The notes under the pieces: model-generated
Databases searched by the model: none
What the model was told of the DNA's origin: nothing
Seen by the model: the letters and a program-made list of their open reading frames with translations, nothing else
Part shown: piece after piece, positions 10,422 through 20,333 of the stretch
Layout of the letters: every line of letters starts with the position of its first letter
How positions within the stretch are numbered: position 1 is the first letter of the stretch
Origin: Natronococcus sp. A-GB1
GTDB taxonomy: Archaea; Halobacteriota; Halobacteria; Halobacteriales; Natrialbaceae
Length of the DNA stretch: 44,329 nt
Direction: 5' to 3'
Assembly: GCF_029688845.1 (NCBI RefSeq)
Contig: NZ_JARUKW010000026.1
Span: 1-44,329 of the forward strand
Program-made: the position numbers and the translations under genes

Positions 10422-11615
10422 TTAGGCGAACAGGGAACTGAGTTGGCCGAGGAAGCCACCCATAATCGAGTTCGTTCCATCACCCTCGTAAGATTCCTCG
10501 AGAGCAACGTCTCCATTGCCGTCCTCAACGATGACTGTGTCACCTTCCTGGCTCCAGACCTCGTTCTGAATCCCCCAGTAGAGGACGTCATCGCTGTTGT
10601 CACTCTCGCTACCACCAGTGTAGACCTGGACCTGAGCGCCTGCTTCGAGTGTGAACCCGCTCGGGAATGAGTATGCAGAAGCACCGCCTGGAGTGTCTAC
10701 TATCCCCTCGTCACGGCGGTCTTGCATGGTCCATCCCGTGAAGTCGATAGTTGCGTCACCCTCGTTCTGGAGTGTCACGTACTCGTCGTCTGGTTCAACG
10801 TTCTCGCCGACGTTGATCTCGCCTAATGTGAGCGTTGCGTCGCCCGCTGTAGTGACTGTTTCTGGTTCCTCTTCCTCTTCTTCCTCGTCATCAGCTGTCT
10901 CCTCCTCTTCCTCTTCTTCGTCGTTTGGTTCCTCATCCTCCTCGTCCGTTTCTTCCTCCTCTTCCGGCTCCTCCTCTTCTTCGTCCGCCTCTTCCTCATC
11001 CTCTGGTTTCTCTTCTTCCTCCTCCTCGTCGTCCTCTTCCTCCTCGTCTACTTCTTCCTCTTCTTCGGAATCGTCAGGAGTCGGTGGGGCTTCGCCGGGG
11101 ACGACCTGGCCACGGAGCTCGCCTTCTGGATAGCTCTCTGTATGAATGTTGACGTACGCTCCTTCTTCGGCCAGCTTTTGGGCAATGGCCTTGAAGCCTT
11201 TGTCTGCGAACTTGCCCTCGAAATCGTCGGTCGTAAGCGTTCCCTCAGCAAGCGTTCCGTCGAACCGCCCTTCGATCAGTTTCGACTCACTCCCATCCTC
11301 GGGGTAGAGTTGAGCGACGACCGGCCCGTCTTCTCCCTCACTTCCGTAATGGATGTGCGCCTGCGTTGCATCGCAGAGCCACTCCACGTCGATCGTATAG
11401 TGGATCTCGCAAGCCTCAAAATCAGCTTCGAAGGTCGCGACACCGCTGGCATTCGTCTTGACCTCGTGCGTCTCTGCGCCCCCCGTTAGCTCGACAGAAT
11501 ACGACTCTGGAATCTCGTGGTCGTCTGCGCTCGCTGTTCCGATCAGAACGCTGCTCCCAACTGCAACACCTGTTACTTGAAGAACCCGCCGTCTGGAATG
11601 AAGGCTGTTGGACAT
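10422..11615 (-). CDS. Tat-exported CHRD and lamin-tail domain protein
   Basis: 397 residues, predicted to act outside the cell. Residues 1-30 are a twin-arginine signal (SRRRVLQVTGVAVG, cut near ASA). Residues about 36-174 form a CHRD domain with its usual features: HIHYGSEGEDGPVVAQLYPE and the closing GAYVNIHTESYPEGELRGQV. Residues 183-251 are almost only Asp and Glu. Residues about 255-380 match a lamin-tail (LTD) domain: GDATLTLGEINVG, EYVTLQNEGDATIDFTGWTM and the strand YSFPSGFTLEAGAQVQVYTG. The C-terminus is hydrophobic (GGFLGQLSSLFA). Both domains are beta-sandwiches found in secreted proteins; a structural or adhesive role is likely. ATG at 11615. Confidence 0.85.
   Translation of the reverse strand: MSNSLHSRRRVLQVTGVAVGSSVLIGTASADDHEIPESYSVELTGGAETHEVKTNASGVATFEADFEACEIHYTIDVEWLCDATQAHIHYGSEGEDGPVVAQLYPEDGSESKLIEGRFDGTLAEGTLTTDDFEGKFADKGFKAIAQKLAEEGAYVNIHTESYPEGELRGQVVPGEAPPTPDDSEEEEEVDEEEEDDEEEEEEKPEDEEEADEEEEEPEEEEETDEEDEEPNDEEEEEEETADDEEEEEEEPETVTTAGDATLTLGEINVGENVEPDDEYVTLQNEGDATIDFTGWTMQDRRDEGIVDTPGGASAYSFPSGFTLEAGAQVQVYTGGSESDNSDDVLYWGIQNEVWSQEGDTVIVEDGNGDVALEESYEGDGTNSIMGGFLGQLSSLFA
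10860..11070 (-). repeat. Low-complexity triplet tract coding for poly-acidic linker
   Basis: TCC/TTC-type triplets, GAG/GAA on the coding strand, encode the 69-residue Asp/Glu linker of the CHRD protein. Such tracts change length by slippage, so strain variation is expected here. Confidence 0.7.
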
Positions 11616-14245: not shown

Positions 14246-16234
14246 TTAGTCATCATCGTCAGCAGCACCTGCTTCATCCATTTCGCATGCTGTTGGTTCT
14301 GGGGGAACGTCGATTGCAGGGTTCTCATCGAAGAATCCCTCCGGCTCGAGCTCGAAACTGGCAATCTCGACAGGAAGCACGGGCCAGTCTTCTGGACGCG
14401 TTCTGTGGTTCACACCGAGCGTGTACCAGACCACCAGATCCTCCTCAACGAGGTCACGATCGGCTGCTGTCCACTCTCGGAGACCATGTGGGTTGTCGTT
14501 CTGATTGGGGTAGTCGCCATCAGCATACAGCTCATCGTCCTCGTATGGTGTTACCCAGAAATTGTTCTCGATGAACCCAGCACGCCGCTGGCTCGGCGAC
14601 CCTGGTTGCATCGGCGACTCGACGTTTGTTCCCGGATGGAGCGTGTACGCCGTTGGGTACCCATACGAGTTGGTCTCGTTTGGATTGGCAATCTTCCAGT
14701 AGCGAGCTTTCAGAGGATCGATATCCATTCGAGCGTCTTGCTCCGTTTCGAGCAGTGTCTCATCGGCAAACCATCCTTGTCCAGCTGGGTTATCGGAGTC
14801 CTCGTGGTTCCACGCAACCTCGTCGACTGGCTGGTTATGTACCTCGTAAGCGCAGTTCTCTCCCCCGTCGACCTCGAAATCGAGTCGGAAGTTGAAATGA
14901 TGCTGGTGGATCGACGTCTTCACTTGGGGCGCAACGATCTCGTAGAAGCCGTCAGTATCCTCGGCCGTTGTTCCCTCTGGAACGACACCGTTCGAGTCGA
15001 TTCCTGTGAGTCGCACTTCGGCCTCGATACGCCCGTCCTGGTAGAAGTACCAGTAGAAGGCGTAATCGTAGTTGTAGACGGTCGCAATTTGCGAGACGAC
15101 CAGTCGCCGGCGCCGACGAACCTCGGTTTCGTCTTCCTTTCGCCACTCGGTGTGTTTCCACATCAACCCGTCATCTTCTTCGTGCATACAGATCGCGTTC
15201 GGAACGTGGAGCGTGCCACCGTCGCGATCGTTAGTGACAGCATCGAAATAGTGCATCACCCCGAGGCAGTCACAGCCCTCGGTCAGCGAGTTGACCATCC
15301 GACCGACATTGAACTCGCTGATGTCGAAGGCGTTCTTCCAGTTGTGATTCGGGTCAGTGTCTCCATATGGGACCGCCATTGCCGAAACCGACGCGCGGTG
15401 AAGCACCTTTCGCCGATCGCCGTCGTCATTATAGTTGATATCGTGGAAAACCAGTCCTTCACGGTCCGTCCATCCAACTCGGAACTCCCACCCTTGCCAA
15501 CTGACCTTCCGACCATCGACCTCGAAACTGACGCCATCGGGTTGAATCACGTCGAGGTGTTTGCGGTCGTCCCGCGTTTCGATCAGGTCCGGTTTGTAGT
15601 TGGCACTCTCCGGCGGAAGCGGACTGTCCTCATCGACGACGCCGTTGTCGACGACTTCGAGAACTTCCATGTCGTCGAGATCAACGAAGGCGTGTACGCC
15701 TTCGATCGGCCGAGCATACGCGTTGTCTTCTTCCGATTCAGCGATCCAGGTTAGCCCTCGAGCGAGCCGTCGATCCTCCAGCCCTTCAGGGACGAACTCC
15801 ATACTGTTGACCGGCCACGGGTCAACGATCACAAGGTCAAAGTTTTCGACGCCGCGCTTGCGGGCCGCGTCACGAAATTCTTCACTCTCTTTGACCGCCT
15901 GTTCTGCATCGAGTACGTCCTGTCCGATAATGTGGGGTTCAGCATCTGGAACGTGCTCCCAGGAACTGACCTCGTTTTCGGTGAGCGAGACGATTGCCTC
16001 GTATGTTTTTCGCTCGTGAAGATCTCGGAGCACGGCGAATACTTCTCGGTCAATCTCTCCATCGTCCTCCCGGTCGGCGAGCTCACTCTTTGGTGGCTCG
16101 ACAGGCTGATAACTGTAAAATCCGAAGCCTTCGAGATCTCTATCGTCCTCGAGGATTTCAGTTGTCTGCTCGATTTCTTCGGCTGTTAGTGGGTCAAGTG
16201 GGTGGTCAACTGCAGGGGTTTCAATTTGCGCCAT
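14246..16234 (-). CDS. Copper amine oxidase 1
   Basis: 662 residues, a full-length topaquinone copper amine oxidase: RCH2NH2 + O2 + H2O gives aldehyde, NH3 and H2O2. The cofactor motif is NYDY at 388-391, so Tyr389 becomes topaquinone. The catalytic base is Asp304 in AFDISEFNVGR, 85 residues earlier as in Arthrobacter enzymes. The copper ligands are His443 and His445 (IHQHHFNFRLDFEV) and His610 (TLGVNHRTRPEDWP). The GCDCLGVMHYFDAV and NAICMHEEDDG blocks are also typical. No signal peptide is present, so it is cytoplasmic. The ATG at 16234 has a TATA-like AATATT about 30 bases before it. It is divergent from the paralogue at 16436. The substrate is unknown. Confidence 0.95.
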   Translation of the reverse strand: MAQIETPAVDHPLDPLTAEEIEQTTEILEDDRDLEGFGFYSYQPVEPPKSELADREDDGEIDREVFAVLRDLHERKTYEAIVSLTENEVSSWEHVPDAEPHIIGQDVLDAEQAVKESEEFRDAARKRGVENFDLVIVDPWPVNSMEFVPEGLEDRRLARGLTWIAESEEDNAYARPIEGVHAFVDLDDMEVLEVVDNGVVDEDSPLPPESANYKPDLIETRDDRKHLDVIQPDGVSFEVDGRKVSWQGWEFRVGWTDREGLVFHDINYNDDGDRRKVLHRASVSAMAVPYGDTDPNHNWKNAFDISEFNVGRMVNSLTEGCDCLGVMHYFDAVTNDRDGGTLHVPNAICMHEEDDGLMWKHTEWRKEDETEVRRRRRLVVSQIATVYNYDYAFYWYFYQDGRIEAEVRLTGIDSNGVVPEGTTAEDTDGFYEIVAPQVKTSIHQHHFNFRLDFEVDGGENCAYEVHNQPVDEVAWNHEDSDNPAGQGWFADETLLETEQDARMDIDPLKARYWKIANPNETNSYGYPTAYTLHPGTNVESPMQPGSPSQRRAGFIENNFWVTPYEDDELYADGDYPNQNDNPHGLREWTAADRDLVEEDLVVWYTLGVNHRTRPEDWPVLPVEIASFELEPEGFFDENPAIDVPPEPTACEMDEAGAADDDD

Positions 16235-16435: not shown

Positions 16436-18481
16436 ATGGCAACGGAAGCCACAACAAAGGTAGACCATCCGTACGATCCATTGACGGCCGAAGAGATCCA
16501 ACAGGCGAGGGAAATACTCGAAGAGGAACAAACAATCGATGAGGGGTATCGATATATAAAGATCGTACTCAAGGAGCCATCAAAACGTGAGATCAAAGAA
16601 TTCGAAAAAAATGATGCGCAAATAGAACGAAAAGCGTTCGTAATCCTTCGAGACAGCAATGAGAAAACCAACTACGAAGCCGTCGTTTCGCTTAACGATA
16701 AAGGACTCACTTCGATAGAGGAGCGGCCTGATGTTCAACCCTCTATCACGCTCGCGGAGTTCGACGAGTGCGAGAAGGCGGTCAAAACTAACGAAGAGTG
16801 GCGAGAAGCGGCGAGCAAACGAGGCGTCGAGAATTTCGACCTCGCAATCATCGACCCGTGGTCGGTCGGTCACCATCTTATTCCCGAGGATATCGACCGA
16901 AACCGTCGGCTCGCCCATGCAATGTCGTGGATCCGAACCAGCGAAGAAGACAACGGGTATGCGCGACCTCTAGATGGGCTACACGCGTGGGTGGATCTCG
17001 ACGAAATGGAAGTCGTGAAAGTTCTCGACCGGGGCACGAAAGTAGACGATGTCGTCTCCGACCTCGAGGACGCACCGTACCGTGAGGAGGACCGTGATCT
17101 CCGCGATGATCTGCGGCCATACAACGTTGACCAACCGGAAGGGCCGAGCTGGGAGATTGAAGGGCGAAAGATCGAGTGGCAAAACTGGCATCTCCGTGTT
17201 GGCTGGACACAGCGCGAGGGGCTCGTTCTCTACAACATCGGCTACGAGGATGACAACGAGGTCAGGCCAATTATCCACCGTGCATCGGCCGCAGAGATGA
17301 ACGTTCCGTACGGTGACCCAGATCCGAATCACAACTGGAAGAACGCTGGGGACATCGGCGAGTACAATATCGGGAGACTGGCGAACTCGCTGACCGAGGG
17401 CTGTGACTGTCTCGGGCATATGCACTATTTCGACGCAGTGATGAACGACGTCGATGGCGAGGTAAACGTCGTCCCGAACGCCATCTGTGTCCACGAGGAG
17501 GATTATGGTACCCTCTGGAAACATACGAACTGGCGAACCGAAAATTCCGAGGTCAGGCGAAACAGGCGCCTTGTCGTCTCGTTTGTCGCTACCGTGGGAA
17601 ATTATGACTACGAATTCAACTGGTACTTCTACCAGGACGGCTCGATCGAGCCACAGGTTCGGTTAACGGGGATCAACAGCAACGGTCTCGTTGGTTCGAA
17701 TGAGGACCCCACGCCGGGTTATTACGAGATGATGGCACCGCATATCAAGGGAATGGTCCATCAACACTTCTTCAACTTCCGGATTGATATGGAGGTCGGC
17801 GGCGAGGAAAACCGTCTGTACAGACGGCAAAACCAGCCAGTCCCGAAGGGACCGAACAAACAGATCCAGTGGGACGGTGAGGAGGAGGTCGACGACCTCA
17901 ACCCAACAGGGGCTGCCTTCTATGCCGATAAAACACCGCTCGAAACCGAGAAAGAAGCACGAGAGCTAATTAATTCGCTGAAAGGTCGATACTGGCAGGT
18001 CGAGCACGTTGAGAAAACGAATCGCCTCGACCAGCCCGTCGGCTACAAACTCGTTCCTGGGGAGAACGTCGAAGCGGCGGCTCAACAACAGTCCAGCGTT
18101 ATGGAGCGGGCTGGCTATATCGCCTATCACCTTTGGGCAACGCCACACCAAGACGACGAGCGGTTCCCGGCGGGAGAGTATCCGAATCAGAACCCTGGTG
18201 GTGACGGACTCCCGAAGTGGACACAACAGGACCGCTCGCTCGATGGTGAGGATATCGTGCTATGGTACACCCTTGGTGTCAACCACGTCGACCGACCCGA
18301 GGACTGGCCGGTCTTGCCCGTCCATCCGGCGAGTTTCAAGCTGGAACCAGTGAACTTCTTCGGTGAGAATCCGGCTATCGATGTTCCACCCGAACACGCG
18401 ATCAAAGACATTCATGCTCGTCGCGAGCAGAAGTACGACGATCCAGACACTGTTGCCAGATCCGAATCAGATGATGACTGA
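16436..18481 (+). CDS. Copper amine oxidase 2
   Basis: 681 residues from the ATG at 16436; a GTG five codons earlier is less likely because the TATA box at 16403-16412 fits a leaderless start at 16436. It is homologous over its full length to the divergent oxidase 1. The active-site set is complete: Asp306 (GDIGEYNIGR), Tyr390 in NYDY (389-392) as topaquinone precursor, copper ligands His442 and His444 (VHQHFFNFRIDMEV), and His617 (TLGVNHVDRPEDWP). It is cytoplasmic, with no signal. The two enzymes differ mostly in the N-terminal 60 residues and in the region 200-240, so they may have different amine preference. The last codons overlap a Cys-rich small gene, which suggests coupled translation. 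Confidence 0.95.
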   Translation: MATEATTKVDHPYDPLTAEEIQQAREILEEEQTIDEGYRYIKIVLKEPSKREIKEFEKNDAQIERKAFVILRDSNEKTNYEAVVSLNDKGLTSIEERPDVQPSITLAEFDECEKAVKTNEEWREAASKRGVENFDLAIIDPWSVGHHLIPEDIDRNRRLAHAMSWIRTSEEDNGYARPLDGLHAWVDLDEMEVVKVLDRGTKVDDVVSDLEDAPYREEDRDLRDDLRPYNVDQPEGPSWEIEGRKIEWQNWHLRVGWTQREGLVLYNIGYEDDNEVRPIIHRASAAEMNVPYGDPDPNHNWKNAGDIGEYNIGRLANSLTEGCDCLGHMHYFDAVMNDVDGEVNVVPNAICVHEEDYGTLWKHTNWRTENSEVRRNRRLVVSFVATVGNYDYEFNWYFYQDGSIEPQVRLTGINSNGLVGSNEDPTPGYYEMMAPHIKGMVHQHFFNFRIDMEVGGEENRLYRRQNQPVPKGPNKQIQWDGEEEVDDLNPTGAAFYADKTPLETEKEARELINSLKGRYWQVEHVEKTNRLDQPVGYKLVPGENVEAAAQQQSSVMERAGYIAYHLWATPHQDDERFPAGEYPNQNPGGDGLPKWTQQDRSLDGEDIVLWYTLGVNHVDRPEDWPVLPVHPASFKLEPVNFFGENPAIDVPPEHAIKDIHARREQKYDDPDTVARSESDDD

Positions 18482-18602
18482 AGCATGCACCCATTGTGGG
18501 CTGCCAGTGGGTGGTTCGACAGTTACCGACTCCGACATTGATGGGCGCTTTTGCTGCCAAGGTTGTCTCAAAACCCATCAGATTGTCATAGATATCGAAT
18601 AG
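18471..18602 (+). CDS. 43-residue Cys-rich metal-binding peptide
   Basis: It starts inside the end of amine oxidase 2 (ATGATGACTGA; ATG at 18471 or 18474) and ends at the TAG at 18600-18602. The protein has CTHCGLPVGG near the start and FCCQGCLKTH near the end, that is a CxxC and a CCxxC motif. This arrangement matches the N-terminal metal-binding segment found on haloarchaeal heavy-metal P-type ATPases, here as a free peptide. Overlap with a copper enzyme makes copper delivery or zinc/copper sensing an attractive guess, but that is inference. It could also be a fragment left from a lost ATPase gene. A T7 run follows 14 bases later. Confidence 0.65.
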   Translation: MMTEACTHCGLPVGGSTVTDSDIDGRFCCQGCLKTHQIVIDIE

Positions 18603-18615
18603 GATTCCATATTAC

Positions 18616-18622
18616 TTTTTTT
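18616..18622 (+). terminator. T7 terminator after amine oxidase 2
   Basis: A run of seven T lies 13 bases after the stop of the Cys-rich peptide, as expected for an archaeal oligo-T terminator. It would end the oxidase-peptide transcript. Confidence 0.55.
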
Positions 18623-18639
18623 ATGCTCAAGAGCAAGGT

Positions 18640-18769
18640 TGTAGTGCTTAGTTCAGTCTTGCTGGCTGGCATTCGTCCATTGAGCGATTGGTACAGTCCT
18701 AAGGGGTAGTAACGCACGAACTGTTCGACACGCTCATATGTTTTCGTCTGACTGGTCACGAATTGTGGA
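18640..18769 (-). pseudogene. End fragment of an integrase-type transposase
   Basis: The minus strand reads TSQTKTYERVEQFVRYY, then LYQSLNGRMPASKTE. This resembles the C-terminal end of rve-type transposases (IS3/IS481 groups), where FVxYYN...RPHQSLxGxTPAE is usual. The central RPH is altered and no other part of the element is present. The fragment begins next to the repeat at 18773. Confidence 0.45.
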
Positions 18770-19223: not shown

Positions 19224-20333
19224 TCAGTTATCGACTAAAGCAATGTTCAAATTCTCGGCAGCAGCGTCAATAACATCTTTTTGATGAGGTTGCAGATCTT
19301 GATAGCCAAATTCTGTTAGGGTATCGAGGAACGGATCCTCGACATCACTCGATTTTCCAGACATTTCTTCAATAGTTGCGAGCCCTGCGAATGGAACGTA
19401 TGCTGTCGAATATCCTCCTTCGTGGGTTGCAACTAGACGACCGTCACAGTGGTCGTCAGCCGAATCGAGAAGAATCTGAGTTAGCCGACGATAGCCCTCC
19501 GAATGAAGCATCATTCGACCGAGTGGATCAAGCGCGCTTCCATCGAAACCAGAGGCCAAATAAATGAGGTCCGGGTCAAATGCTGACAGTGCCGGCTGGA
19601 CAAGCTGCTCAAATGCTTCTTCGTAGGCACCTACTCCTGATCCTGGCGGTAATGGCAGGTTCAGCGTATATCCCCGTCCATCTCCTTCACCGACATCTTC
19701 TACTTTCCCTTCACCAGCCGGATAGAAATTATCCTGATGAATTGATATCGTGAGAACGTTCGAATCATCAATAAATGCCTTTTCAGTACCATTTCCGTGA
19801 TGAACATCGAAGTCAACCACAGCAATTCGGTCTACTGAACGCTCTTGTCGGGCGTGCATCGCTGCTAACGCAACATTGCTAAAGATACAGAACCCTCGTC
19901 CTTCGTCTGCCTCAGCGTGGTGACCTGGTGGCCGGACAAGTGCATATGCGTTGTCAACCGTTCCGTTGAGAACGGCATCAGTTGCTTCAATAATACCACC
20001 AGCCGCCAGTTTCGCAATCTCGAAACTCCCTGGCCCGAATGGAGTCAATTCCCCAGCATCGCCACCACTTTCCTCGCTCATTTCACGGATTTCATCGATA
20101 TATTCAGATGTGTGATACCGGCGTAATTCTTCTTGAGTTGCAGCTCGTGCATCGATCGATTCGAGTTCCTCAAGAAGCCCACTCACCTCCAAGATATTCC
20201 GTAACCGACGTTTTGTCTGTGGATTTTCTGCATGTGTATCGGGTTGAATAGGTCCTCTAGCCGGAAGGAATGCGGCAGCACTCCCAGTATCGTGCCACAT
20301 GAACGATTCCTCCCAGACGAATCCAGTTTTCAT
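19224..20333 (-). CDS. HDAC-family deacetylase (acetylpolyamine amidohydrolase-like)
   Basis: 369 residues, the full length of a class II-like arginase/deacetylase fold. The signatures are RPPGHHAEADEGRGF (134-148; His138 and His139 are the catalytic pair), DFDVHHGNGTE (174-184; Asp176 and His178 are zinc ligands), SGFDGSALDPLGRM (261-274; Asp264 is the third ligand) and HEGGYS (304-309; Tyr308). All zinc and catalytic residues are present, so it should be active. Such enzymes remove acetyl or other acyl groups from lysines, polyamines or small amides. The nearby amine oxidases make a small acyl-amine a good candidate substrate. It is cytoplasmic. ATG at 20333. Direct repeats at 18773 and 20616 bracket it. 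Confidence 0.9.
   Translation of the reverse strand: MKTGFVWEESFMWHDTGSAAAFLPARGPIQPDTHAENPQTKRRLRNILEVSGLLEELESIDARAATQEELRRYHTSEYIDEIREMSEESGGDAGELTPFGPGSFEIAKLAAGGIIEATDAVLNGTVDNAYALVRPPGHHAEADEGRGFCIFSNVALAAMHARQERSVDRIAVVDFDVHHGNGTEKAFIDDSNVLTISIHQDNFYPAGEGKVEDVGEGDGRGYTLNLPLPPGSGVGAYEEAFEQLVQPALSAFDPDLIYLASGFDGSALDPLGRMMLHSEGYRRLTQILLDSADDHCDGRLVATHEGGYSTAYVPFAGLATIEEMSGKSSDVEDPFLDTLTEFGYQDLQPHQKDVIDAAAENLNIALVDN

Follow-up and report, generated by a model that had tools for sequence, protein, structure and literature searches.

The closest described counterparts of the small protein analyzed here are the PF12156 domains at the N-terminus of copper P1B-ATPases, both the haloarchaeal SafE-linked ones and others of the CopA type. 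These domains share with it the CxxC...FCCxGC pattern at ~40–56% identity and are often preceded by SafE, by which we mean a gene for a DsbD_2 membrane protein (PF13386), usually annotated as TauE/SafE. In contrast, the free peptides comprise 40–49 residues, lack the HMA, membrane, and ATP-binding parts, and are encoded behind an amine oxidase gene. C(P)XCG zinc-finger micro-proteins such as HVO_0758, HVO_2753, and Brz are also Cys-rich, shorter than 70 residues (42 for the peptide), and predicted to hold a single metal site, whereas the peptide has only one CxxCG, carries CCxxC as its second motif, is homologous to an ATPase domain, and lies in an operon with a copper amine oxidase (AOC). TRASH/YHS domains, including L24e, the MYM zinc fingers, and the YHS copper-sensor module of M. 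phlei (PMC4626032), may resemble it in fold, which is predicted to be treble-clef-like, but the peptide is of a distinct Pfam family and its match to the TRASH profile is not significant. Finally, the Atx1/CopZ copper chaperones of the HMA fold and the metallochaperones of Halobacterium (PMC3551603) offer a parallel for the proposed cytosolic carriage of Cu(I) to a client, whereas the peptide has neither an HMA domain nor MxCxxC, its fold is different, and its client would be an amine oxidase. Each part of the arrangement is known; the papers searched describe neither a free domain encoded behind an amine oxidase nor an operon of the order AOC-SafE-peptide. The same search yielded no copper donor dedicated to a prokaryotic amine oxidase, no experimental paper on the function of PF12156, and nothing on point for TauE/SafE with CcoI. 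To our knowledge, it is not settled how copper is supplied to cytosolic amine oxidases in cells that hold free copper to a minimum. In vitro, amine oxidases are able to acquire copper and to generate topaquinone without help.

The locus lies in a stretch of 44,329 nucleotides from Natronococcus sp. A-GB1 (contig NZ_JARUKW010000026.1), hereafter the window, with the following features.

14246–16234, minus strand: AOC1, a second copper amine oxidase, of another clade than AOC2; no peptide or SafE downstream.
16436–18481, plus strand: AOC2, a copper amine oxidase (PF01179) of 681 aa that starts at ATG 16436; in the list of open reading frames, it opens at GTG 16421.
18474–18602, plus strand: Cys-rich mini-protein gene, free PF12156-type, with a predicted TRASH-like fold; 42 aa, MTEACTHCGLPVGGSTVTDSDIDGRFCCQGCLKTHQIVIDIE; placed by its open reading frame, its PF12156 match, and a start kept in three genomes.
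18474–18481, plus strand: overlap of 8 nt (ATGACTGA) between the peptide start and the AOC2 stop codon, TGA 18479–18481.
18616–18622, plus strand: T7 run seen within 18596–18640, a candidate archaeal terminator that would end transcription of the AOC2-peptide unit.

The motifs of AOC2 were intact, namely the TPQ motif NYDY and the copper-binding His motifs HQH and NH..R.EDWP. No signal peptide was apparent in the AOC2 sequence, so its copper would have to be acquired in the cytosol. The first-pass annotation had described a 43-codon frame that opens inside the last AOC2 codons, and such a frame was indeed found at 18471–18602, reading MMTEACTHCGLPVGGSTVTDSDIDGRFCCQGCLKTHQIVIDIE followed by a stop codon. 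Its start needed correction. ATG 18471 is an alternative and less conserved start, which is ACG in the nearest relative (G089), while ATG 18474 is common to all three Natronococcus genomes (G000, G089, and G088), and the gene is therefore better placed at 18474–18602. The pattern CxxC-(8–25)-CCxxC occurred once in the six-frame translation of the window and never in 100 mononucleotide shuffles. A chance frame was thus ruled out by this absence together with the PF12156 match and the coding constraint. For the three pairs among the Natronococcus genomes, the peptide had dN/dS values of 0.15, 0.18, and 0.10 and an excess of synonymous changes (Fisher p of 4e-4, 3e-4, and 2e-7, respectively). DNA identity among these genomes dropped to background right after the peptide stop codon, and the DNA downstream contained no true ATPase homology, the weak extensions running through stops. 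Judged by these comparisons, the frame is a genuine gene under purifying selection, and it is neither attached to an ATPase nor followed by the residue of one. The annotation had described the peptide as free and had named two findings that would go against its reading, a lack of selection and an ATPase residue; neither was observed.

The annotation had also likened the peptide to the N-termini of heavy-metal ATPases, and this was borne out. A Pfam scan matched it to PF12156, the "putative metal-binding domain of cation transport ATPase," at E 2.1e-5 and 25.6 bits, which does not reach the gathering score of 27, so "PF12156-type" denotes homology and not formal membership of the Pfam family. 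The N-termini of two ATPase-length frames of the same genome (838 and 825 aa) showed 54% and 50% identity to the peptide, which is itself a 42-aa open reading frame and not the N-terminal part of an ATPase. C5, C8, C27, C28, and C31 (CxxC, FCCxxC) were invariant in 25 free and ATPase-borne domain sequences. No HMA domain was matched in the Pfam scan, no significant sequence match to a TRASH/YHS profile was obtained for the window peptide (PF24273 at E 0.29 only), and no solved structure was convincingly related to it by sequence. The relative in G270 matched the zf-FCS profile at 1.5e-4. An AlphaFold2 model of the single chain, built from a 22-row alignment, showed a beta hairpin followed by a helix at a mean pLDDT of 89. 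The second Foldseek match of this model was the TRASH domain 2das, at a probability of 0.98 and a TMq of 0.67 but with an E of 0.17; the matches also included archaeal L24e. No match fell below 0.001; since no Foldseek match is statistically strong at 42 residues, "TRASH-like" is to be taken as a lead and not as a test. The fold is given here as predicted TRASH/treble-clef-like. A treble clef with four Cys commonly binds structural zinc.

Recurrence beside other amine oxidases, which the annotation had asked about, gave a mixed picture. AOC matches to the query were present in 30 of the 125 genomes of the family. The listed matches favor close relatives of the query; among them, the peptide lay behind the AOC2 orthologue in Natronococcus G000 and G089, with 88% peptide identity in G089. 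In Natronorubrum bangense (G101), the single genome of this kind, it followed AOC2 after 114 nt without overlap. An order-level search added two genomes of other families, G180 (f6) and G270 (f12), in which a gene of the AOC2 clade is followed by a DsbD_2 gene and then by the peptide. A Halarchaeum plasmid carries AOC followed in turn by an ammonium transporter (amt), a P-II regulator (glnB), SafE, and the peptide, the last (WP_255494150.1) being annotated as a hypothetical protein. In an AOC tree built by a quick method, the oxidases of the window, G089, N. bangense, G180, and G270 fell in one clade of 10 members (SH-aLRT 100), five of which have no peptide, and the Halarchaeum oxidase fell in a different clade. 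Members of the AOC2 clade from three families therefore have the frame, as does one oxidase of a second clade, while the majority of the haloarchaeal AOC clades examined have neither peptide nor SafE nearby. A universal partnership with AOC is thereby ruled out. The peptide is not generally required by amine oxidases, because most of them, half of the AOC2 clade among them, have none nearby.

Nor do all copies share one origin. Although the domain tree, of 42 columns, is poorly resolved, it grouped the peptides of Natronococcus, G270, and Halarchaeum together (90/83) and placed the N. bangense copy among the SafE-linked ATPases (100/99). A single clade of all AOC-linked peptides was rejected (p-AU 8e-5), and one that leaves out N. 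bangense was not (p 0.27). The N. bangense copy therefore stems from a different ATPase class, indicating that the domain reached its place behind an AOC gene at least twice. In pairwise comparison with the ATPases, dN of this copy (0.09–0.17) was below dS (0.5–3.2), a weak sign of constraint, since the ATPase side accounts for much of the divergence.

SafE was a further recurrent neighbor, one that the annotation could not have seen and that connects the peptide with the SafE-ATPase gene pair of copper pumps. On the same strand, it stood directly upstream of the free peptide in three AOC loci (G180, G270, and Halarchaeum) and of the ATPase gene in 15 of 34 PF12156-ATPase loci, one of which (L156) is in the window's own genome. 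SafE and the domain thus form a recurrent couple in ATPase loci, and the AOC loci hold the couple of a copper pump without the pump. Eight further AOC loci contained SafE and no peptide. Free copies also occurred apart from oxidases: in G396, one follows SafE with no AOC, and a divergent halocyanin-type gene (PF00127) adjoins it; in G055, a lone short copy has no recognized copper gene beside it.

The spacing of the genes suggests how the peptide may be produced. Counted from the upstream stop, its start lies at −8 nt in the window, at −4 in both G270 and Halarchaeum, and at +1 in G180. In Haloferax volcanii, the −8 nt overlap is common (62 pairs), start-to-stop spacings of such range are tied to coupled translation, and gene pairs with such spacings are 8.1-fold enriched in heteromeric complexes (PMC10666635). 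The four spacings fall in this coupling range, and termination-reinitiation coupling would thus be expected; for AOC2 and the peptide, the 8-nt overlap makes it plausible. We propose that the peptide is a copper-handling accessory of the cytosolic amine oxidase, either donor or safe-keeper, translated in step with it, and assign this reading a probability of about one half. Termination-reinitiation would produce the peptide as soon as the oxidase, or SafE in the relatives, has been translated, and would thus yield it in proportion. Its five conserved cysteines (CxxC, CCxxC) would hold Cu(I) in the cytosol, and this Cu(I) would be passed to the new oxidase, filling the copper site and allowing topaquinone to form; alternatively, the peptide might hold spare copper safely. 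The context, namely SafE and the halocyanin gene beside another free copy, strengthens the putative role as donor or guard of copper that the annotation had suggested. In a fuller version, the upstream DsbD_2/SafE membrane protein probably supplies or reduces the metal. We advance more tentatively, and with doubt prevailing, the view that the whole forms a dedicated copper-loading module of the cytosolic amine oxidase, in which a freed pump front domain of ~40 residues is co-translated with the enzyme, SafE/DsbD_2 supplies or reduces copper where it is present, and the domain was recruited more than once. N. jeotgali DSM 18795 (G088) counts against an accessory role: the peptide is intact (76% identity) beside an AOC2 that is a truncated pseudogene with a stop.

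The main rival is that the peptide is a small zinc-finger micro-protein that regulates its operon or another gene, with a structural zinc and with copper irrelevant. H. volcanii has dozens of C(P)XCG micro-proteins, most of the tested ones binding zinc (PMC11241148), and Brz, encoded adjacent to bop, regulates bop (PMC2253796); the TRASH and L24e-like folds are themselves zinc fingers. However, as the type is defined in PMC11241148, only the first motif of the peptide, CTHCG, is of the C(P)XCG type, the second cluster being CCQGC-L. The homology is to ATPase N-termini, the context of SafE, AOC, and halocyanin points to copper, and we consider the zinc-finger explanation unlikely.

Equally unlikely in our judgment is that the peptide serves as a copper buffer, or as a trans-acting sensor or regulatory domain for a copper ATPase or SafE, and never touches the oxidase, being placed in the AOC operon because expression of the latter demands copper. 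The peptide copies the N-terminal domain of SafE-linked ATPases, one free copy stands with SafE and halocyanin and without AOC, CcoI has metal sites at its N-terminus that regulate this pump or accept copper (PMC8475189), and in N. jeotgali the peptide persists after the decay of AOC2. All of this is consistent with such a role, but the loci of the window and N. bangense have no SafE, the peptide there follows AOC2 itself, and overlaps of this kind favor partners within one complex (PMC10666635). The last alternative, in which the peptide is a functionless leftover of a SafE-ATPase pair once downstream of the oxidase, is very improbable: SafE is downstream of AOC in many loci, other peptide copies are patchily distributed, and such remnants exist, as in G144 (L153, 4937–5334), where a decayed ATPase N-terminus has its HMA domain in another frame, but this is what a real remnant looks like, whereas the peptide shows dN/dS of 0.10–0.18 across considerable divergence, retention of all five Cys, similarity that ends at the stop, no ATPase homology downstream, and clean start/stop overlaps in several families.

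Should the accessory role hold, a 42-residue protein made in step with its enzyme would be close to the simplest conceivable metallochaperone, and one testable in haloarchaeal laboratory strains. The locus is also relevant to what PF12156, an ATPase domain of wide occurrence, does and to the genes annotated as "sulfite exporter TauE/SafE" next to copper pumps, and it suggests a route by which a pump domain is reused as a free carrier.

Several further observations were made. Of the N. jeotgali AOC2, about the last 114 codons are left (L079, contig 99, 318–659); they carry a stop and are joined to unrelated DNA, while the peptide frame there stays open. The decayed ATPase of G144 lies close to a multicopper-oxidase-type gene (PF07732/PF07731). 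A recurrent haloarchaeal cluster (L085, 3714–8341; L134, L135, L136, L137, L139, and L143) combines genes for an ammonium transporter, a P-II regulator, a copper amine oxidase, and SafE, which suggests that amines serve as a source of nitrogen and that a copper-related membrane protein accompanies their use. Short Cys/His-rich C-terminal tails were present on several other haloarchaeal AOC clades (L037–L061, e.g., GQDVPGHGHGGCEADADDD; HTEYDITSPDGDCSSGDGCSSADD) and absent from the AOC2 clade; such tails are possibly a built-in metal site replacing the free peptide. The window's genome holds at least five AOC genes, of which AOC1 (14246–16234, minus strand) and AOC2 (16436–18481, plus strand) are divergently oriented and of different clades. 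Near both, at 19224–20333 on the minus strand, a histone-deacetylase-family protein (PF00850) is encoded, which may deacetylate acetylpolyamines as part of the same amine catabolism. At 10422–11615, also on the minus strand, the window encodes a secreted-looking protein in which a very long linker rich in Glu and Asp separates two apparent domains.
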